NCBI GenBank assembly: GCA_947175335.1
Contig: CAMWMF010000021.1
Coordinates: forward strand, 1-34,960
Direction: 5' to 3'
Origin: an uncultured Clostridia bacterium
Lineage (GTDB): Bacteria; Bacillota; Clostridia; Christensenellales; Pumilibacteraceae
Length of the DNA: 34,960 nt
Part shown: positions 3,192 through 33,943 of the stretch, piece by piece
How positions within the stretch are numbered: position 1 is the stretch's first letter
How the letters are laid out: each line of letters opens with the position of its first letter
The notes under the pieces: generated by a model
What the model was told of the DNA's origin: nothing
Databases searched by the model: none
What the model saw: the letters and a program-made list of their open reading frames with translations, nothing else
Position numbers and translations under genes: made by a program

Positions 3192-3224
3192 AATTCCGAA
3201 TTCATAATTCCGAATTCCGAATTA
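3192..3224. repeat. AATTCCGAATT-type intergenic repeat abutting the rlmH stop
   Basis: About 33 bp of near-tandem AATTCCG units on the plus strand. Read on the minus strand it begins with the rlmH stop codon itself, as TAATTCGGAATT. Close copies occur at 8040-8073, 21555-21587 and 33911-33943, with degenerate ones at 7947-7979, 23270-23299 and 32427-32435. Confidence 0.8.
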
Positions 3225-3659
3225 CTTATGGTACGGCACACCCTTGATTATAGTGGACGCGCGGTACAGCTGTTCGTACAATAACAGCCGCGCCAGCTGG
3301 TGGGTATAAGTCACCCGTCCGAACGATATTCGCCGCCTGGCAGCCGAGCGCACGCGCTCGTCCACGCCCTCGGCGCCGCCTATAACAAAAACTATTTCGT
3401 CGCGGCGTTCGTGCTCCTTTTTGAGCATATCGGCAAACTCCACGGAATCGGGCTGTTCGCCGTTAATGTCCATAAGTACAAAGACATCGCCCGCGCGCTT
3501 CAAAATCTCGTCGCATTCCTTTTTATTCGTCGGCTGTTCGGGGATTTCGCAAAGCGCAATTTCGTAGCTTGATTTAAGGCGTTTAAGGTATTCGGCGCAG
3601 CCGTCGCGGCAAAACGCATTACTCAGCTTGCCTACGCACACTATCTTTATCTTTTTCAA
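3222..3659 (-). CDS. rlmH: 23S rRNA pseudouridine-1915 N3-methyltransferase (RlmH)
   Basis: SPOUT-class methyltransferase that modifies pseudouridine 1915 in helix 69 of 23S rRNA on assembled 70S ribosomes. The 145-residue form starts KKIKIVCVGKL. It has the SAM-binding FVIGGAEGVDE loop and ends with the family hallmark THQLARLLLYEQLYRA plus a terminal PYHK. The chosen start is a TTG whose TTGA overlaps the TGA stop of the upstream CPBP gene by 4 nt, with GGGG about 9 nt before it. An ATG five codons upstream (3674) is possible but gives an atypical N-terminus. RlmH is usually about 155-160 residues, so this one is slightly short. Confidence 0.93.
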   Translation of the reverse strand: MKKIKIVCVGKLSNAFCRDGCAEYLKRLKSSYEIALCEIPEQPTNKKECDEILKRAGDVFVLMDINGEQPDSVEFADMLKKEHERRDEIVFVIGGAEGVDERVRSAARRRISFGRVTYTHQLARLLLYEQLYRASTIIKGVPYHK

Positions 3660-4750
3660 TATAAAAATCCCCACACATATGTGAATACCGTCGTAAGCAG
3701 CGTAACCACGCCCAGCGCGATAAACATTGCAAGGTCGCGCAGCGTCGGCTTGTATTTGGTTTCGGCGTAATCCTTGCCGTAAACCTCGCGCTCCATTTCC
3801 AAGTCCTTCACCTTTTCGGCGTCGAACTCGCCGAGCATGACGACGCGCTTGTTTGTCGCGTCAAACGCGCAGTCTTTTAGCGCCTCTCTCTTTTTCTTGA
3901 TTATCTGCCTGTCCCGAATGTACAGCATAAGCAAGACCATAGCCGTGCCAAACGCCGCCACCGCCAAAAACACAAGCATAAGCGCCCACACGGGCATACT
4001 GCCGATAATAGCGTAAAACCCGCCGCCGAACGCCCATTTATAGTTATCTGCGTAGTCGACGAACACACTCAAAAAATTGTTGGTAAAGTGCATCAGCATT
4101 GCGGGATACAGGCTTTTGGTGTTAAGCGTAAGGTATGCGGCAAGCGCGCCGAACAGCGCGGTGTAAAACACTTGACGTATATTTTGGTGGAACAGCCCGA
4201 ACACTATGCCGCACAGCACAATGCACCCCCACCGACTAAACGAATTTTTAGCAGTGGACAGCAGCCCGCCGCGCATGGCAAATTCCTCGCAAACTGCGGG
4301 CAGGATTGCGGTAAGCAATACGTCGACGACAAAGAACCCGAACACAAAGCTATCGGGCATATTGTCCGCCGATTTAGCCACGGTATAGCCTGTCAGTTTA
4401 AGCAGCGCCGTCCACACGGACGACACCCCCACCGTCATAAAGTACACGGAAAGACCGAGCGGTATGGCGAGCAAAAAGTACGGCTTAAACTTGCCGACAG
4501 AGCTGTATTCGAGTGTTTGTTTGACGGTGCGTTTGCCGTAAAACTTGTATATGCAAAATGGCACCGCCAAAAAGAATATGAGCTGTGAGCATAACGAAAA
4601 CAACGCGGACCCGCCGAGCGACTGACCGTACGTTGCGGACGGAAGCGCGGCAAAGTACACGATAAGGCGCATAAGTATAAGCCCGCCCACACACGAAGCG
4701 AGGGCGTAACCGACTGCCTTATAATCGCGTTTCAACCACAACGGCAACAT
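3656..4750 (-). CDS. CPBP-family intramembrane protease (first of a tandem pair)
   Basis: A 364-residue polytopic membrane protein with the CPBP (CAAX protease/bacteriocin-processing; Rce1-like) signature: EEFAMRGG (EExxxR), FGLFHQN (FxxxH) and LMHFTNN (HxxxN). These carry the catalytic Glu and His residues within the membrane. About eight hydrophobic segments are visible, followed by a charged cytoplasmic stretch (about residues 280-340) and one C-terminal TM segment. Substrates cannot be read from sequence. Bacterial members process or protect against small peptides, or cleave membrane regulators. It lies 4 bp after a related CPBP gene and overlaps rlmH by 4 nt. Confidence 0.88.
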   Translation of the reverse strand: MLPLWLKRDYKAVGYALASCVGGLILMRLIVYFAALPSATYGQSLGGSALFSLCSQLIFFLAVPFCIYKFYGKRTVKQTLEYSSVGKFKPYFLLAIPLGLSVYFMTVGVSSVWTALLKLTGYTVAKSADNMPDSFVFGFFVVDVLLTAILPAVCEEFAMRGGLLSTAKNSFSRWGCIVLCGIVFGLFHQNIRQVFYTALFGALAAYLTLNTKSLYPAMLMHFTNNFLSVFVDYADNYKWAFGGGFYAIIGSMPVWALMLVFLAVAAFGTAMVLLMLYIRDRQIIKKKREALKDCAFDATNKRVVMLGEFDAEKVKDLEMEREVYGKDYAETKYKPTLRDLAMFIALGVVTLLTTVFTYVWGFLY

Positions 4751-4754
4751 ACCT

Positions 4755-5774
4755 TTACCCCGCTATCATCGTAATAAGATTTATAACAAACAGCACACCG
4801 CTTATACCCAAAGCGATAAAGTACCGCATAGTGCCGTCTTTTTTGCGCGCGTCGGCAAGCGCGACCGTCTGAGGCGTAACCTTTTGCTCGTCGCTCTCGC
4901 CCGCCTCGGCTTGGGCGTTTTGCTTGCCGTAGCCGAACCGCACGAGCGCGAACAGAACAGCCCCGCCCGCTACCAATAGCGCAAGCGTAATAAACGCCGC
5001 CGCAACGAGATTGGCAACAAGCCACCCTTCACAGCCGCCTATTACGCCTACAAGCGGCTCGAACTGTATGGCAAGCGCCGCGGCGTTGGCGGTTGCGTGT
5101 AGCAATACGCACGGCAACAGCCTGCGCGTTTTATTCATGATTACTGCGGACAGCGCGCCCAGCGAAAATTGGAACACGACCTGTATCGGACTCATATGCA
5201 TAAGCATAAAAGCGAGGGCGCACAAAAGTACGGCTTTTACTGCCCCGCCGTTTTTCCTAAGCCCGTTAAACAGCACGCCGCGGTATATCGTTTCCTCGAA
5301 CACGGGCGCCATAAACACCGAAGCAATAACTATCATCACCACCGACGACGGCGTACTAAGGTCTATATTGCCGGCTGTCGGCGAAATATGCAAGGCGTAA
5401 GTAGTAAAATACCCGTACCACAGCGTGGGTAAATACATACCGCAAAGCAGCACTATTGCCCCGACGACGGGTATAATAAAGTCTCTGTAATCTACCTTTT
5501 TGTCCGGCTTGCACGCGAGCGCACAGTCAAACCGATATTTATTAACCTTGCAAAACAGCAAAATAAACAGCGCGTTGGCGGCTTGAATGAATATCATAAA
5601 CGCCGTCAAAAAGTCGCCGTTTGTCGCGATATCGGGAAAGCTTTTGGACAGCAACGTGGCAACCACGCCCACAAGCGCTTGGCAAATGAGCGTAACCACT
5701 ATCGCGCCGAGATAGAATGAACACGCGCCGCAATAATCGAATTTTTTTATTTTATCGCTGCTTGTTTTCAACAT
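4755..5774 (-). CDS. CPBP-family intramembrane protease (second of a tandem pair)
   Basis: A 339-residue multi-pass protein with the CPBP motifs FEETIYRG (EExxxR), FMLMHMS (FxxxH) and VLLHATAN (HxxxN). It has a charged loop of about 40 residues (AQAEAGESDEQK region) before the last TM segment. That architecture matches its downstream neighbour, so the two probably arose by duplication and then diverged. The ATG overlaps the 3' end of the walJ-like gene by 7 nt, which suggests translational coupling. In Bacillus the genes between walJ and rlmH encode an HtrA protease; here two intramembrane proteases occupy that place. Confidence 0.88.
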   Translation of the reverse strand: MLKTSSDKIKKFDYCGACSFYLGAIVVTLICQALVGVVATLLSKSFPDIATNGDFLTAFMIFIQAANALFILLFCKVNKYRFDCALACKPDKKVDYRDFIIPVVGAIVLLCGMYLPTLWYGYFTTYALHISPTAGNIDLSTPSSVVMIVIASVFMAPVFEETIYRGVLFNGLRKNGGAVKAVLLCALAFMLMHMSPIQVVFQFSLGALSAVIMNKTRRLLPCVLLHATANAAALAIQFEPLVGVIGGCEGWLVANLVAAAFITLALLVAGGAVLFALVRFGYGKQNAQAEAGESDEQKVTPQTVALADARKKDGTMRYFIALGISGVLFVINLITMIAG

Positions 5775-7949: not shown

Positions 7950-8074
7950 TTCGGAATGCGGAATGCGGAATTAGGAATTGAATGACTGCGGCAAAGCCGC
8001 CCTAATTTTAATTTTTAAAGCGCGCTTGCGCGCAAAACAATAATTCCGAATTCATAATTCCGAATTCCGAATTT
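7947..8074. repeat. composite inverted repeat between fumarase and the M29 peptidase gene
   Basis: The left end (7947-7979) reads TTCGGAATGCGG-like and the right end (8040-8073) carries the complementary AATTCCGAATT units, so the two ends form an imperfect inverted repeat. Inside lie two short GC-rich hairpins: GCGGC/GCCGC at about 7988-8001 and GCGCGC/GCGCGC at about 8020-8034. No open reading frame is convincing. This has the shape of a miniature non-coding repeat element. Confidence 0.6.
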
Positions 8075-10818: not shown

Positions 10819-11502
10819 TTACAGCATAAAGCAAACTAAAAGCACCAACGAAAAATCGTATATACCGTGCGCAATGATGACCGACAAAAGCGAGCAGTCT
10901 TTTATAAAATATTTGCTATACCCAAACACGCAACCGACAAGGGTGGTAAACAGAACTTGGATCAAGCTTCCGTTAATTATATGCCACAGTCCGAATAAAA
11001 CGGCGGCAATCAGCGGCGCAAACCATTTGCATTTTTTCAACCAAATTTCAAACTGATTCTGTACGTACCCGCGGAAAACGATTTCCTCGCACACCCCTAC
11101 AAAAAGAATATCCTGTACGGCGGAAATTATCAAAAAGCCGGCGGAGGGTTCGGTATGCGAGCCGATTATACTTGTGCCGCACAAAATCGGAACGATTCCC
11201 ATCAACAGGCACAACACGGCGGCCATCGCAAGTCCGATTAGTATTTGCAGCCACAATCTGTGTTTTGCCGGTAGCAGCTTGCTTCCCTGCGCCGTCAGCT
11301 TCATAGCAACAACGGCAACGGCGCCGCATGCCGCCATCACGAGCAACGTAAGGGTTATTCTTACCCCATATATATCGATTTGCCATACTCCCCAAAGCGA
11401 AAACGTCAATCCGACAATCAACGTCAACGCAACAATCAATATTATGACGGCATATTTACTGTCGGCATTTACGGGGAATATCGATTTTTTCTCATCTTCC
11501 AT
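10819..11502 (-). CDS. CPBP-family intramembrane protease (third copy)
   Basis: A 227-residue multi-pass protein with CEEIVFRGYVQN (EExxxR), FGLWHIIN (FxxxH) and IIAHGIYD (HxxxD, a variant of HxxxN). It is shorter than the two CPBP proteins near rlmH and lacks their cytoplasmic insert, so it belongs to another subgroup. A GGAG site precedes the ATG. It follows the 126-residue unknown gene by 41 bp and may be the last gene of an rtcB-led operon. Substrate unknown. Confidence 0.88.
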   Translation of the reverse strand: MEDEKKSIFPVNADSKYAVIILIVALTLIVGLTFSLWGVWQIDIYGVRITLTLLVMAACGAVAVVAMKLTAQGSKLLPAKHRLWLQILIGLAMAAVLCLLMGIVPILCGTSIIGSHTEPSAGFLIISAVQDILFVGVCEEIVFRGYVQNQFEIWLKKCKWFAPLIAAVLFGLWHIINGSLIQVLFTTLVGCVFGYSKYFIKDCSLLSVIIAHGIYDFSLVLLVCFML

Positions 11503-13880: not shown

Positions 13881-13909
13881 TTGACAAAAATCGGTGAAAA
13901 TGTTAAAAT
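13881..13909 (+). promoter_or_regulatory. promoter of the giant repeat-protein gene
   Basis: TTGACA (13881-13886), a 17-bp spacer, TAAAAT (13904-13909). Transcription should start near 13916, giving a leader of about 38 nt that contains TTGGAG before ATG 13954. This excludes the in-frame GTG at 13894, which lies inside the promoter spacer. Confidence 0.85.
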
Positions 13910-13953: not shown

Positions 13954-16900
13954 ATGTCAAAATCCCTACTATCCAAAAAATCATCGCTGACTTCTCGGCG
14001 TAATATCATAATTTACATAATAGCTACCATCCTTATTTTGGGCATTGTTGCCGGATTTACAAACGTGTTTCACTCGGACAACCGCAGGTTTGCGGCACAG
14101 TGGGGCGAAACGATAGTAATGGAATCGCAGCCGCCCGCCACAGGCACCCCTGCCGACTACGACCTACTGACCAATCTTCAATACACGGCATACAGGATTC
14201 ACCACTCCAAGTACTTTAAGGGCTACACCGACGGCAAGGTTTTGGCCGACATAGGCGTAGGCAGCTACACGCAATACCTTACCAACACGCGCGTGGTGTA
14301 CGACCAAAACATAGTATTTACCGAAACTATATCGTCGTCCAGTCTTAAAAGCTTAGCCGAACAAAAGTATATCGACAACGGCATAATAATTTTCCGTGGT
14401 GCAGACAAGATAAGCGGCAGCAATGTCACATTTTCCAATACGGCGTCGCAAATGTCGTACGAGCAGTACAGCAAAAACTACGGCGCGGTACCCAACCAGC
14501 TTAGCAAATACATAATCAACAAAGATACCATACTGTCCGTCAAGGACGAAAATGCTCTGGTGGCGCCGCGGCTTAACAGCAACGGCGACAGTGACGGAGT
14601 GAGCTTTGACGTGCCCGATCATTTGGTCCCCGACGCCGACGGCAACTACGTGTTCACGCTAACCCTCGACCCGACGGAGTCGTCGCTGTACTACCGCAAC
14701 GAGGTGCGCACGCTGGCGGGCGCCGACCAAAACCCCAAATTTTACTCGGTCAAGGTAACCGTCACCGTCAATTCCGAGTGGTATCCTATTTCCACGCGCA
14801 CGCTGGAAGAATACGACATAGCTATCCCCGTACTCGGCGCAATGCGTTGCAGCGGCGACAACTTTGAAACGTTCTCGATGATAAACGACGAAAACGGCAC
14901 GATTCCCGAAAAGGACTTTTTCCAGCCGTACGTCGATCAAGCCAAGGCAAATCCCGACTACAAACCGCCCGAAATCAATCAGAGCGGTCCCCTTTCGGCT
15001 TCCGACTATCTTGCGTCGGCGTTTGCCTGCTATCTTTCCGGAGAGAAAAACCTCGACCTTACCGCCGACATATATGTAAACGGCATTCCCGTAATAGACA
15101 GACTTTCGGCATACGACCTTGCCCTATCCGTCAACCTCGGCACGCTCGACATACAAGCTATGCTCGGCAGCGGCTTGTACGTTAAGTACGACGGTGACAA
15201 GGTTTATATTAAAAATAAAAATATAAACGGATACGTTTCCGCCGATGACGCCAAAAAGCTTACGGACGATCCACTGCTCAAAGGGCTTTTGAGCTTTGGC
15301 GAGCTCGATATGAACAAGATATTCGGCGGCGACATGCTGGACGTAATATTCAAGGACTGCGAAATGACCGAGAAAGACGGTGTGACCGAAATTCCAATGT
15401 CGTTCTCGCTCGACCTGTCCGATATAATCCCCGCGCTCGACGACGTAAAGGTAGTCGCGTCTATCAAGATAAACACCGCGGACAAATCGCTTAACAGCAT
15501 AACTGGCACGGTAACACTCGGCGACGTTACTATCGACATAGAAGCGCTGCCGCTCAAAGCTTCGCCCGCATTCCCCTCGGTAGACGGCGCCAAAGACTTG
15601 TCGGGCATGCTCGACTTTGTTCCCGATATAGCCGCCACCGCTATGCAAAACACGTACGGCATTGACGGCACGCTCACTCTCAACGACATGACAGTCGGAC
15701 TTAACGCGTACGTAGACAGAACGAACGGACTTAAAGCGGAAGCAACGCTAAACGTCGACGGCATAGACGTACTTGTCAAGTATATCGACGGAACGGTTTA
15801 TGCGACGGCGCTCGGCGTAAACGTGCGCGGCACTACCGAGCAGCTGCACACCCTACTCGACGTACTGCTCGACGGTACAGACATCGAAAAATACCAAAAG
15901 CTACTCAAAGCGATGTTGCCGTCGTCTGTCAACCAAATAATGGAAATGCTCGGCACTGTTTCTGTCGACGATAATTCGCTTGAAATAGGTCTTAGCTTTA
16001 TGGGCATGCCCATAAATGCAAAGCTCACGCGCGGAGACGGCAAGCTTAAATCGGTCGCGCTCGGCGTGAACGTGGATCTGTTCGGCATAAAGGCGAACGT
16101 AGCCGCCGACCTCAACATAACCGAGCCGACAAGGCACGAAGTGACGGCGCCGACTACAACGGACGCGCTCACCTTTGCCGACCTCGCAACGCTTATCAAG
16201 CAGGCCAAGCCCTACCTCGACGCGGATTATTTCACCGCGACAATCGACGGTTATGCGGAAATCGACGGAACGTGCAACAACGTAAACGGCAGCTTTGCAA
16301 TAGACAAAATTACAAACAAAAACGAAACGACCGTAGCGGCGACAGGCACTCTGTCCGCGCTCGGCAAGGATATAACCGTAACGTACGTTGGCGAAACGGC
16401 GTACGTCGCAATGGGTAGCGTAAAAGCCAAGCTCGATACGACTAATGCCGACGACCTTATATCCGCGGCAATGCAAATCGTACAGCTGATTACGGACGGA
16501 TACGAAATGCCCGAGATCGACGTTACTGCATTGAGCGGCGCAATCAAGTCCGTAACAATGACGGACGGACTGCTCGTAGCCGAGCTTGCTATAGACGGGT
16601 GCAGCGGAACGCTTACGCTCGATCTTAAAGCGGGTAACATCCACATTGCGCTTGTTGCAAACGGCGTTAACGTCGGACTTGACATAACGGTAAAAACAGC
16701 CCAAACCGGCCACGAAATAACTGCGCCGACAGATGCCGACGAGTATATGGATATTGCCTCGCTTTCCGCTTTGGCGTCCACTGCGGCGCGCGTACTGGAA
16801 GCGGGCGGCATTCACACCGTTGCGGCGGTAACCATGGGCGACGTAACGCTCAACGCCGCGGTTGACTGCACGGTAGAAGACGGTATGCTCAAAGCTGTCG

Positions 16901-19900
16901 TAACGGAAAACTCGCTTGGGCTTACAATTATACTGCTCGGCGACACCGCTTACATAACGGTTGGCGATATAAAGGTAAGCGGACAGCTGAAAGACATTAG
17001 CGCTATTATGGACGCGGTAATACCCAACCTGCCCGACCCCATCCGCCCGTACATAGTCAAGATGACCGAGATTATGCTCGGCATCATCCCCTCGCAGGAC
17101 GAGCTTACCACCGACGGCAAAGTAGATATTGCCAAGGCGATAGATACCTTGTTCGCTATGATTACCACGCTGTCTATCGACGACAGTCAAATAAATATAG
17201 GCATATCGCGCAATGCGCTTACCGCAAACCTTAGCGTCGCAACCGACCTGTCCGAAGTAAGCGGCAACGTAACGCTCACCTTCGACGGCATCGGCGGACC
17301 GTTCGGCGAACATTACGAAATGGCGTTCGATATAGGCATGCAACAAATAGAGGCATGTGCTGTCACAGTCCCGACGGTTAACGCCGAAGAATACGTAAAA
17401 GCAAGCGATATACTCGCCGCTATCGACTGCGTGCTTCCGCTCATCAAACAGCATGCATTCGACATCGGAGTAAACGTCACGGTATTCGGACAAACGATAA
17501 CCGGCAACGTATATATCGACCTCGGCGAATACACGCTTGACACCATAGCGGTAAAAGCTCAGCTCGATATAGCAGGCACACCCATTGCCGTTACGCTGAC
17601 TGAAAAGAAGTTGTACGTCGATATCAACAACGGCGCGGTACGACTTACGCAACAGCTTTCCAAGACAGCTATAAATGAACTTTTGGCGCAAATAGACGAG
17701 GCACTCCCCGAACTCGGACTGTCCGACAAAATCCAATCGCTGCTCGACTCAGTCAATACCGATATAAACATAACCGACGTGCTTAACAATATATCGCTGT
17801 CCCCCGCTCAAAACGGTATGACGCTTGCCGCGTCGTTCGGCGACACCGTAGTCACGGCAAATATCGCATTGACGGACGGCGTGCTTAGCGCAATAAACGT
17901 GGACTGCAATATCGGCGGCAAACAAATTTCGGTTGCACTCGATGTTCAAACAGAAGGCGGCATGCTTAGCGGCATACAAACAACGCAAGCGACAATAATG
18001 GGCGTCGACCTCGGCTTGAACGTCACTCTGTCGCCCGCCGAAAGCAAGCGCGACGTAACGCCCGACGGCGAATACGTACAAATATCCGAATTCATCCCGT
18101 ACATTGCACCCATAAAGACGCTTATGGAAAGAGCGACATCGGCCAACACGGTTACGGTTGATTTGTCCGATATGATAATCGAAGTCATGGGCAAGCAAAT
18201 AACTGTAAGCGGCAAAATCGATTTGTCGTTAAATCCCGTTAACGTGCGCGCAGTGCTCACGTTGTTTGCCGACAGCGATACGGACAAAGTAGACCTTACG
18301 GTTGTTTATGCTAACAACGTATTATATATCAACATCGGCAAAATATCGCTCAAATTCGATATCCAAAACGATATGAGCAAGCTCAACGAAGCTATTGCGC
18401 CATATCTGCCCAAGAGCCTTAAAAAGCTTGGCGACCTCGGTGCGCTCTCCCCTGTTTTCGCAATAATAGACAATATCAAAAAGATTACCGATGCGCAGGG
18501 TGCCGCCGAAATAATGAGCATACTGTTCGACAGCGACAATGCTTACAACAAGAGTATGATACAGATTGTTGCCGATATGATACAGCTGTTTAAGCGCGGA
18601 ACCGACGGTTGCATCGCCGTAGGCGTAAACGTGATGGAAGCGCCGTTTGCGGTAACGCTTAACGTGCAACCGATAATCGCGGGCGACTACATTGACTTCA
18701 AGCTCGGCGTGGCTGTGTCCAACCTTCTTGCCGTCCATCTTACGGCAAAGCTCGATTTCACCAACGAGGAGTTTACCGTTTCGGCACCGAAGGACGCCGA
18801 CGGGTACACGCCCGTTGTGGACTTTGTAACGACGGTCATTAACGGCGTCAACACGCTGACGGCAAAAGTCCCCGACGAGATTACCACGGACAGCAACGGC
18901 AACACCGTAACCGTGTCGCAAATGGCGTTCGAGGTTGAAAGCTTTGAATTCGACTACGACATTTTCCAAACCAAAACGATAATCGACGAAAACGGCGAAA
19001 CGGTAGAAGTCAAGGACGAAGCCGGCAGAGCGGAAATCGTCAAGGACGAAGCGGGAAATAAGGTTAAGGAAAAGACGATACAACTGTCCAATATCGACGG
19101 ACAAAAGGCGTTACGTTTCGGCTTGACCACCACCAAGGTAAAGAGCGCCGACGGCAAGGAAACTAAGTCCACCAAGCTTGCAATCGAAGCGCATATACGT
19201 CTCGGCATAATCGGCGGAGACGGCAACGCGCAAACAGGCTTCCCTATCGAGCTCGACTTGTACGTACAGCCGCTGGATACCGCCGAAAAAGGCCTTGCCT
19301 ACCTCTATTACAGAGAGGCAAACGGCTACGGCGAAAAGATTTCCATAGACTACGTGTCCGTACTGCAAATGGCAACGGCGATACTGGAAATCCTCAACGC
19401 AGACGGCGAAACGATAGACAGTCTGTTAAAGGATTACAAGCTGGATATAGACACTTTGATATTCGAGTATATGTCCATATCGGGGCTCGACAGCGTAAGC
19501 GAGCTCATAAACAATCTCATCAAAGCGGTAGACGAAGCCAAGACGGCGCTGTCCGACGCGAAAGCGGCGTGGAACAGAATTCAGGACGCCGAAGATCTTG
19601 ACGCGCTTATCTACGATGCGTTAAACGATACGACCAAGGACGGCGAAAGCGCTACGGTCAAGGCATACTTAGACAGCGCGATATCCCACCTTAAAGCGGC
19701 TATTGCCCTATTCAAGACCGACGAGGAAGAAACCGAAACGCCCGAGGAACCGGACAACCAACTCAACGGCGCGTTGGTCGGCAAGGTGGTAAACAGCGTG
19801 TACTTTAACAGCGCTAATTCGGTGCTTTCGGCGTACGTGGACAATGCGGTCGCCACCGGCACGGACGGTTGGGCTGTCGTATCGGTAACGAACGCGAACG

Positions 19901-21507
19901 ACAAGATAAACAACATAGGCGTAAGCAATCTCGACGTCAACACCGCCAAGCTCAATACGTTCAATATGAGTTTCGCTGCCACGCAAAACGTTACGGTCAC
20001 TATCCCCGACGACTACAAGTCCGAAGTCACCGACAGCGACAAGGTGCGCTACGCCGACCTTTCCAACCTCAAACACCTTATATTCGACGTGATGAACACC
20101 GCCAATCTGTTGGAGTTCGACATAGGCGGCGGCGACACCGAGGACGAGATTAAGCTTGCTATTAACTTGGCAGGACGCGAAGCGATAAACATTACTATCA
20201 AGTACAGCGTCAAGGTCAAAATAATAGACTGCGGCAAGGACGAAAACGGCAAAACATTGTTCAAGACCGCCGCAGCAATCGAGCTGTACTTTAACAACTG
20301 CACGGCGCTCGGCGCCACGGTCATACCCGACTGCGTGACTCGCCTTTACTTCTGGGACAACGTGCTGTACGTACAGGGCGTAGCCGACTTCGGCAAAGAA
20401 AAGAACGTTACAGTAGGTCACTCCACTTCCGTTTACGAGTGTAAGGAGTGGGCTGTCAAAACGTACTTTGCACCCGAACGCGACAGAGGCGATTACCAGA
20501 CCGACACGACCAAGCTTAATTACGTGTATACAATGTACACCGTTGACGAGCTGTTCTATATGCTCGGCAACGACATAAAGACATTCCTAAATCAATTCTT
20601 GTTCTACCTCGTGCCGCTCAGCAAAGACTTCTCCATATTCGGCGTAGATTTGCAACAAACCATAGCCGATTCCATAGGCGGGTCGAGCAGCAACGAAACA
20701 AACACCGACAATACGCTTGCCAAGATTTTCAAAGCTTATGCTTACAACAACGGCAAACACACCTTGCGCATAGGCTTAAAGGAGCTTGCGGGCAGCTCGG
20801 CGCTTGACGATTTGACAGTATCCATTATCGGCGCAAACGACGGTGACGACAACAACGGCAAAGGCAATTTGCTCAACAACTACATTTCCAAGCTCAACTT
20901 AGACACGTCCATACAAAACGGCTTGGTAACGGTCGAGCTCGGCGCCACGCTGCGCAACGTAAAAGAACAAGGCAATACGATAGATAGCAAAGGCCTTACG
21001 CCGTCGTCGGTTGCCACAATGCAAAACAGCTTCGACTTTGACGGTCACGCTTGCAACGCAAATCCCGCGTATTACGACGCCGCCGTTATATATACGCTCG
21101 ACGGACTGTTCGGCAAGAACAGCGACGGCACTATGTACACCTCGCACACTATGGTCTACAACAAAGCGACGTACGTGCAAAAGACGCGCGAATGGATAGC
21201 AAACTTCACTGCACATCCCGATTACAGAGGCGTAAAGGACAGCCAATGCTACGACAACTTTACGCACACGCTCACCAAGGCGTACGAGGCTGTCTACTCA
21301 CCCACTTACTATATCGGTGCGGACGGATACGTATACGCCGACGCAAACCACAATACACCCATTGCCGTCAAGAGCATAACCGATACGGTCTTAGCCAAGG
21401 TCACTACCGACGCCAAAGGCAAAATCACTTCTGTCGAAAACCGCAACGGCGGCATACAGTGGAGCAGACCTTGGCAAGCGGCATACGAAGCAGCCCAAGC
21501 GGCTTAA
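13954..21507 (+). CDS. giant membrane-anchored protein with diverged ~200-residue beta-rich repeats
   Basis: A 2,517-residue protein of unrecognised family. A short basic N-terminus and one TM segment (about residues 17-36) anchor it, and nearly all of the rest should lie outside the cell. Residues about 345-1606 hold six diverged modules. Each has a helical stretch and then beta-strands, including a recurring hairpin of the type TYVGETAYVAMGSVK at residues ~410, 610, 811, 995, 1216 and 1452. A boundary motif like HEVTAPTTTD recurs at ~728, 920, 1136, 1366 and 1606. A degenerate seventh unit follows, then an Ala-rich helix (~1850-1920), an acidic Glu/Thr/Pro linker, and a distinct ~570-residue C-terminal domain. 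There is no LPXTG, SLH or other wall anchor. The module pattern recalls LolA/LppX-like lipid-binding sheets, but that is only a guess. ATG 13954 follows TTGGAG. Confidence 0.85.
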   Translation: MSKSLLSKKSSLTSRRNIIIYIIATILILGIVAGFTNVFHSDNRRFAAQWGETIVMESQPPATGTPADYDLLTNLQYTAYRIHHSKYFKGYTDGKVLADIGVGSYTQYLTNTRVVYDQNIVFTETISSSSLKSLAEQKYIDNGIIIFRGADKISGSNVTFSNTASQMSYEQYSKNYGAVPNQLSKYIINKDTILSVKDENALVAPRLNSNGDSDGVSFDVPDHLVPDADGNYVFTLTLDPTESSLYYRNEVRTLAGADQNPKFYSVKVTVTVNSEWYPISTRTLEEYDIAIPVLGAMRCSGDNFETFSMINDENGTIPEKDFFQPYVDQAKANPDYKPPEINQSGPLSASDYLASAFACYLSGEKNLDLTADIYVNGIPVIDRLSAYDLALSVNLGTLDIQAMLGSGLYVKYDGDKVYIKNKNINGYVSADDAKKLTDDPLLKGLLSFGELDMNKIFGGDMLDVIFKDCEMTEKDGVTEIPMSFSLDLSDIIPALDDVKVVASIKINTADKSLNSITGTVTLGDVTIDIEALPLKASPAFPSVDGAKDLSGMLDFVPDIAATAMQNTYGIDGTLTLNDMTVGLNAYVDRTNGLKAEATLNVDGIDVLVKYIDGTVYATALGVNVRGTTEQLHTLLDVLLDGTDIEKYQKLLKAMLPSSVNQIMEMLGTVSVDDNSLEIGLSFMGMPINAKLTRGDGKLKSVALGVNVDLFGIKANVAADLNITEPTRHEVTAPTTTDALTFADLATLIKQAKPYLDADYFTATIDGYAEIDGTCNNVNGSFAIDKITNKNETTVAATGTLSALGKDITVTYVGETAYVAMGSVKAKLDTTNADDLISAAMQIVQLITDGYEMPEIDVTALSGAIKSVTMTDGLLVAELAIDGCSGTLTLDLKAGNIHIALVANGVNVGLDITVKTAQTGHEITAPTDADEYMDIASLSALASTAARVLEAGGIHTVAAVTMGDVTLNAAVDCTVEDGMLKAVVTENSLGLTIILLGDTAYITVGDIKVSGQLKDISAIMDAVIPNLPDPIRPYIVKMTEIMLGIIPSQDELTTDGKVDIAKAIDTLFAMITTLSIDDSQINIGISRNALTANLSVATDLSEVSGNVTLTFDGIGGPFGEHYEMAFDIGMQQIEACAVTVPTVNAEEYVKASDILAAIDCVLPLIKQHAFDIGVNVTVFGQTITGNVYIDLGEYTLDTIAVKAQLDIAGTPIAVTLTEKKLYVDINNGAVRLTQQLSKTAINELLAQIDEALPELGLSDKIQSLLDSVNTDINITDVLNNISLSPAQNGMTLAASFGDTVVTANIALTDGVLSAINVDCNIGGKQISVALDVQTEGGMLSGIQTTQATIMGVDLGLNVTLSPAESKRDVTPDGEYVQISEFIPYIAPIKTLMERATSANTVTVDLSDMIIEVMGKQITVSGKIDLSLNPVNVRAVLTLFADSDTDKVDLTVVYANNVLYINIGKISLKFDIQNDMSKLNEAIAPYLPKSLKKLGDLGALSPVFAIIDNIKKITDAQGAAEIMSILFDSDNAYNKSMIQIVADMIQLFKRGTDGCIAVGVNVMEAPFAVTLNVQPIIAGDYIDFKLGVAVSNLLAVHLTAKLDFTNEEFTVSAPKDADGYTPVVDFVTTVINGVNTLTAKVPDEITTDSNGNTVTVSQMAFEVESFEFDYDIFQTKTIIDENGETVEVKDEAGRAEIVKDEAGNKVKEKTIQLSNIDGQKALRFGLTTTKVKSADGKETKSTKLAIEAHIRLGIIGGDGNAQTGFPIELDLYVQPLDTAEKGLAYLYYREANGYGEKISIDYVSVLQMATAILEILNADGETIDSLLKDYKLDIDTLIFEYMSISGLDSVSELINNLIKAVDEAKTALSDAKAAWNRIQDAEDLDALIYDALNDTTKDGESATVKAYLDSAISHLKAAIALFKTDEEETETPEEPDNQLNGALVGKVVNSVYFNSANSVLSAYVDNAVATGTDGWAVVSVTNANDKINNIGVSNLDVNTAKLNTFNMSFAATQNVTVTIPDDYKSEVTDSDKVRYADLSNLKHLIFDVMNTANLLEFDIGGGDTEDEIKLAINLAGREAINITIKYSVKVKIIDCGKDENGKTLFKTAAAIELYFNNCTALGATVIPDCVTRLYFWDNVLYVQGVADFGKEKNVTVGHSTSVYECKEWAVKTYFAPERDRGDYQTDTTKLNYVYTMYTVDELFYMLGNDIKTFLNQFLFYLVPLSKDFSIFGVDLQQTIADSIGGSSSNETNTDNTLAKIFKAYAYNNGKHTLRIGLKELAGSSALDDLTVSIIGANDGDDNNGKGNLLNNYISKLNLDTSIQNGLVTVELGATLRNVKEQGNTIDSKGLTPSSVATMQNSFDFDGHACNANPAYYDAAVIYTLDGLFGKNSDGTMYTSHTMVYNKATYVQKTREWIANFTAHPDYRGVKDSQCYDNFTHTLTKAYEAVYSPTYYIGADGYVYADANHNTPIAVKSITDTVLAKVTTDAKGKITSVENRNGGIQWSRPWQAAYEAAQAA

Positions 21508-21523
21508 CAAAATCAATCAATAC

Positions 21524-21553
21524 AAAATCGCACGGCGAATACCGTGCGATTTT
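21524..21553 (+). terminator. terminator of the giant-protein gene
   Basis: A perfect 12-bp stem (AAAATCGCACGG and its complement) around CGAATA, followed by a T run, 17 bp after the stop codon. Confidence 0.9.
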
Positions 21554-21554
21554 T

Positions 21555-21587
21555 AATTCCGAATTCATAATTCCGAATTACGAATTA
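21555..21587. repeat. AATTCCGAATT-type repeat forming the asparaginase stop
   Basis: About 33 bp, nearly identical to 3192-3224. Read on the minus strand, the asparaginase TAA is the first triplet of the repeat. Confidence 0.8.
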
Positions 21588-33844: not shown

Positions 33845-33910
33845 AAATCCCTACGACCGGATATAAATAAAAAATATACGATATAAATTGCGGTCAAGAT
33901 TTTTCAATCA

Positions 33911-33943
33911 TAATTCCGAATTCATAATTCCGAATTCCGAATT
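33911..33943. repeat. AATTCCGAATT-type repeat between jag and DUF2726
   Basis: Near-identical to 3192-3224 and 8040-8073. Here it sits about 9 bp beyond the jag stop instead of forming it. Confidence 0.8.

Follow-up and report, generated by a model that had tools for sequence, protein, structure and literature searches.

What could a bacterium do with a surface protein of 2,517 residues that is held in the membrane by one helix and built from a repeat too diverged for ordinary comparison to see? The question is raised by a giant gene on the forward strand of contig CAMWMF010000021.1 (assembly GCA_947175335.1), from an uncultured Clostridia bacterium of the family Pumilibacteraceae. The window analysed here is this single contig of 34,960 bases; the genome comprises 1.96 Mb in 52 contigs. 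Our tentative answer, with a probability of roughly 0.42, is an anchored chain of about nine beta-clam domains whose faces hold lipophilic guests and which spans into the wall. The parts of this answer that come from computation are the existence of the repeat, the fold predicted for the head domain and for modules 1-4 and 6, anchoring by a single helix, the lack of detected sortase and Omp85 in the genus, and low ratios of nonsynonymous to synonymous substitution (dN/dS).

The repeat only emerges with profiles. Blastp of the giant protein against itself returned nothing beyond the self-hit, and phmmer searches with single segments reached 7.1 bits at best, compared with 5.0 bits for the best reversed or shuffled control; module 5 even fell below its own control. 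Genus-level alignment profiles detected related stretches within the protein, down to an E-value of 3e-15, and a family-wide module profile placed six modules at residues 360-530, 556-736, 748-934, 937-1149, 1157-1377 and 1384-1621. A hidden Markov model (HMM) free of the own genus, built from 91 of 203 module rows, scored these six at 47, 102, 81, 70, 84 and 55 bits, against 15 bits for the reversed protein and at most 4.6 bits for 98 shuffles. Because the window protein was the seed of the iterative search that gathered the 91 rows, this profile is not wholly blind to it. A preliminary description, made from the letters of the window, had claimed the repeat and given the length of the protein; the former holds in the profile searches and the latter follows from the reading frame. 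Its recurring beta-hairpins (about residues 410, 610, 811, 995, 1216 and 1452) and module boundaries (about 728, 920, 1136, 1366 and 1606) sit at most a few residues from where they were placed, and residue 2015 marks another, sixth boundary of this type. The exact HE(V/I)TAP string occurs only at 728 and 920, the remaining boundaries being looser (VTVP, DVTP, VSAP, VTIP).

The same description counted six to seven modules. Their tandem arrangement stands, and the count is amended to six clear modules and two probable, diverged ones, plus a head that matches LppX/LprG; the chain appears to contain about nine domains, not six or seven (Table 1). Residues 2005-2355 align with positions 1-180 of the module profile in hhalign (88% probability, E = 3e-6; score 44.8 against 18.9 for the reversed control), a match that is only moderate because the reversed controls of five accepted modules score 24-36. 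Residues 1622-2010 gave partial colinear matches to the profile, and in the second of two structure models the regions of modules 7 and 8 roughly keep the module element order. The fold search left both unconfirmed, module 8 being covered by no row among the matches listed.

Table 1. Features of the giant gene and its product (window positions).
Feature	Position	Strand	Remarks
Promoter-like site, TTGACA-17-TAAAAT	13881..13909	+	predicted; 11/12 consensus bases matched
Giant gene	13954..21507	+	2,517 aa; matches in 20/20 genus genomes, own included
N-terminal membrane helix	13993..14076	+	residues 14-41; hydropathy; basic residues precede
Head domain	14086..14988	+	residues 45-345; LppX/LprG/LprF-like predicted fold
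Module 1	14998..15552	+	residues 349-533
Module 2	15601..16122	+	residues 550-723
Module 3	16174..16698	+	residues 741-915
Module 4	16753..17355	+	residues 934-1134
Module 5	17401..18084	+	residues 1150-1377; HMM 84 bits (1157-1331) and 8 bits (1327-1377)
Module 6	18103..18762	+	residues 1384-1603
Module 7 (probable)	18814..19977	+	residues about 1621-2008; similar element order, long helical insert
Module 8 (probable), diverged	20059..20988	+	residues about 2036-2345; hhalign to module profile and topology
C-terminal tail	20989..21504	+	residues 2346-2517; stretches with pLDDT <50, last ~50 residues ordered
Terminator-like hairpin, 13 pairs	21524..21553		palindromic, listed on - strand; T run also follows on + strand

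Neither of the two structure models, with predicted template modelling scores (pTM) of 0.44 and 0.56, includes module 5. The predicted head matches LppX, LprF and LprG, including entries bound to phosphatidylinositol mannoside (PIM) and triacylglyceride, and the predicted modules match LolA, LolB and RseB/MucB; the fold matches with the highest Z-scores are carrier-type proteins and their relatives. Modules 1-4 and 6 run as a helix, six strands, one to five helices and five strands, and in these models an 11-stranded, strongly curved sheet with lid helices is predicted, as in the LolA/LppX beta-clam. According to PMC6363788, the core of this superfamily has 11 strands, LprG and LolB carry three short helices as a lid, and the binding of hydrophobic ligands is the feature that unites its members. 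The likeness to LolA/LppX half-barrels that had been proposed from the strand pattern is therefore borne out by the predicted fold; Ig-like or MucBP-like stalk modules were considered and rejected, since the folds matched by modules 1-4 and 6 are of LolA type. The strands of the five measured domains are two-faced: strong hydrophobics make up 59-72% on the greasier face and 12-26% on the opposite one, a contrast exaggerated by picking that face strand by strand.

Sequence families recognize little of this. Neither LppX_LprAFG nor LolA of Pfam was matched above its curated cut-off by the whole protein (E up to 1), by four short head proteins (E up to 1) or by 122 modules (E up to 0.1; best 25 of 34 families). 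None of those best 25 Pfam families recurred across these modules, each being matched by one module. A single module weakly matches an LmeA-like phospholipid-binding family (E = 0.017), and a Big_3_3 match at residues 2005-2076 reaches 16 bits (cut-off 27). Hence the earlier statement that no described family has such a layout stands in the Pfam and NCBIfam searches. A multi-domain chain of the LolA/LppX type appears to have no description so far; to our knowledge, the fold is familiar only from proteins with one such domain.

Only one hydrophobic helix exceeds the hydropathy threshold, at about residues 14-41; the first structure model has a helix at residues 12-32, with a low predicted local distance difference test score (pLDDT) there. 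The positive-inside rule would put the N-terminus inside and the remainder outside, and the giant is accordingly predicted from its sequence to be a type II membrane protein anchored by this helix. The last 60 residues hold no LPxTG, in agreement with the single N-terminal segment and missing wall-anchor motif described before. Among 41 family chains, one (L080) has an LPxTG-type string near its C-terminus, followed by no hydrophobic segment, and a loose pattern picks up a lipobox-like string in seven. In all 20 genomes of the genus, no match was found to Omp85, Pfam sortase or Pfam LolA (positive in seven, three and six of 14 control genomes, respectively); because of these three negatives, the bacterium probably has a single membrane. 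A sortase-anchored wall adhesin was rejected because neither that motif in the last 60 residues nor a Pfam sortase in the genus genomes was detected. The absence of Omp85 matches also weakens the two-membrane version of the lipid conduit in the preliminary description. A peptidoglycan wall is assumed because the window contains a Mur ligase family gene. Such domains measure ~4-5 nm each and a Gram-positive wall is of the order of 40 nm; nine domains would reach about 40 nm.

The whole-protein query found matches in 44 of 74 genomes of the family, related genera included, and in 27 of 297 drawn from the order. Of 391 genomes drawn from the class, 10 matched the head profile; of 398 from the phylum, the module profile matched three, among them the own genome. 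Modules occur in 38 of the 41 distinct family chains (47 loci), and the suggested survey for copy-number variation returned two to eight per chain, counts that are minimal in three chains reaching contig ends. The head also exists alone, with 270-292 residues, in related genomes (L072, L073) and in the own genome (L074); the L072 protein, of 278 residues, carries a lipobox. Within proteins of at least four modules, 17 distinct strong paralogue pairs (at least 40 bits) were counted in 11 proteins: 15 lie two positions apart and two are adjacent (22 of 29 two apart at a threshold of at least 25 bits). Since strong pairs lie mostly two positions apart, the sequences suggest that the duplicated building block is a two-module unit. 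The tree contains two fully supported pair duplications (L067; L062 with L063) and two moderately supported ones (genus; L090). Some pairs do not group and several share ancestry, and there were perhaps about four independent events. At L067, module 2 matches module 4 with 297 bits and module 3 matches module 5 with 160 bits.

Three related loci deserve mention. L067 (G133, another family of the order) seems to hold a recently duplicated two-module unit at about residues 548-1221 of the open reading frame, and its contig ends inside the gene. On contig C1 of the own genome, the stand-alone head relative of 270 residues (L074:9318-10130, -) lies directly downstream, on the same strand, of genes for a protein rich in G-x-T triplets, labelled collagen-like in this analysis, and a family 2 glycosyltransferase; short stretches akin to it were found in 10 of the 20 genus genomes (in rows aligned to roughly residues 227-313). 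An S-layer-homology protein with one module-like stretch, a possible single-copy relative, is encoded at L107:727-2091 (+), in another family of the class.

We favour the lipid-holding chain because its fold matches point to lipid and lipoprotein carriers, the element order of modules 1-4 and 6 fits an 11-stranded core with lid helices, and the strands are two-faced; because the head occurs alone with a lipobox and has a low dN/dS; and because 15 of 17 strong pairs are two positions apart. Rooted in the cytoplasmic membrane, the chain would extend into the peptidoglycan wall or pass through it, and the greasy concave face of each domain would hold a lipophilic guest. At the membrane, loading or unloading of this guest would fall to the nearby, well-conserved head, much as in LprG/LppX, and the outer array would capture, store or pass molecules, either the cell's own glycolipids and lipoproteins or lipids from its surroundings. 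Two neighbouring clams may form one working unit, as modules are commonly duplicated in pairs. A bolder form, a wall-spanning hand-off chain of single-membrane Clostridia, in which an LprG-like head and eight LolA-like clams in coupled pairs pass lipids or lipoproteins between membrane and surface without a soluble carrier, is unlikely.

Several observations speak against the lipid-holding chain. The Foldseek alignments to LolA are loose (root-mean-square deviation about 8-9, target TM-score 0.37-0.49), perhaps because they span several modules. No sequence homology was detected between head and modules (hhalign probability 0.2%), and the role of the greasy face may simply be to pack against helices of the same module. 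Lipid binding is not universal in the superfamily, VioE being an enzyme according to PMC6363788. No lipid enzyme or lipid transporter is encoded among the window genes with Pfam matches. One of the 122 modules weakly matches an isopeptide-forming fimbrial domain (NCBIfam, E = 8.5e-4), and the modules diverge fast and vary in number, as in stalks.

These last points lead to the most serious alternative, somewhat less favoured, a surface stalk or adhesin. Its beta-clam modules would bind no lipid and merely push a distal tip through the wall, the tail modules or the C-terminus binding a partner. The two to eight modules per chain, the 15-19% identity of the window's own modules to module 2, the fimbrial match and the genus without detected Omp85 or sortase all suit it, as does the distal tail: compared with the L008 copy, residues 1991-2517 are the least conserved (46-57% identity, head 80%), with dN/dS up to 0.39 and 0.53. 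Over the whole protein, dN/dS against this distant copy is lowest in module 6 (0.09) and highest in the last 147 residues (0.53), with 0.13 for the head; against the 97% identical L003 copy, it is 0.03-0.29 over eleven regions, the head tying for the lowest (0.03). On the other hand, dN/dS stays at or below 1 throughout three pairwise comparisons (a single region in one pair was not computable), the fold matches of highest Z-score are carrier-type proteins and their relatives, and the head is retained as a short stand-alone protein, all of which argue against a mere stalk. An envelope sensor or assembly scaffold like RseB, whose domains would detect lipoproteins or lipids in the wrong place and hold on to partner proteins, is improbable: the membrane helix is preceded by only about 15 residues, and the window genes with Pfam matches include neither an anti-sigma nor a kinase gene. 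Least credible is a continuous groove of half-barrels joined edge to edge, along which lipids would slide as in VPS13 or YhdP/TamB; a single chain of tandem half-barrel units with its anchor in one membrane fits it, and a two-module duplication fits coupled neighbours, but the modules are predicted as 11-strand domains, each having its own helices, and the genus has no detected Omp85 and therefore no obvious acceptor membrane.

The giant gene was also described as a single-gene unit with its own promoter and terminator. A near-consensus promoter-like site and the 13-pair hairpin are present, although terminator-like sites as a class are not enriched (10 found, 14.1 expected); the open frame extends 5' as far as a GTG at 13894. 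The flanking genes with Pfam matches are mostly of housekeeping types, with no apparent functional link to the giant. Three Rce1-like CAAX-protease family proteins, two of them adjoining, are encoded at 3656-5774 and 10819-11502. Short AATTCCG/AATTC-type repeats, possibly a small dispersed family, lie at 3192-3223, 8040-8073 and 33908-33943, and a string like them occurs after the giant gene, near 21553-21585. In genera g4 and g8 (for example, L061 and L088), a large-gene cluster stands upstream of the giant in opposite orientation in seven loci, and a second one in six of these; in the two loci scanned, the clusters correspond to a P-type ATPase and a GH2 glycosidase.

Nine or so such domains chained on one anchored protein, with matches in all 20 genus genomes examined and in related genera, would be a new use of the fold. 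The finding raises the question of the means by which bacteria with one membrane move greasy molecules across a thick wall or hold them there; should the modules prove empty, they are instead an unusual building block for surface stalks. The mycobacterial LppX_LprAFG lipoproteins LppX, LprG and LprF are single-domain proteins, of 183-210 residues in the matched entries, whereas the giant adds up to eight modules, has no sequence-family match to them and, in the genus, starts with an N-terminal helix without lipobox. LolA and LolB are single-domain carriers of diderm bacteria; the domains of the giant are tandem and tethered, in a genus without Pfam LolA matches. RseB/MucB are two-domain periplasmic regulators of an anti-sigma factor, a partner for which the window offers no candidate with a Pfam match. 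Bridge-like lipid transfer proteins (VPS13, YhdP, TamB; RBG/AsmA) share the plan of a long half-barrel array on one anchored chain. They bridge organelles with long hydrophobic beta-sheet grooves, as stated in PMC7613979, whereas the giant has 11-strand LolA-type modules and a host without detected Omp85. With tandem-domain surface stalks (Ig-like, MucBP and others), the giant has in common the varying copy number of modules on a surface protein, but its best module fold matches are LolA-type and not Ig-like, the Ig and fimbrial hints being weak.
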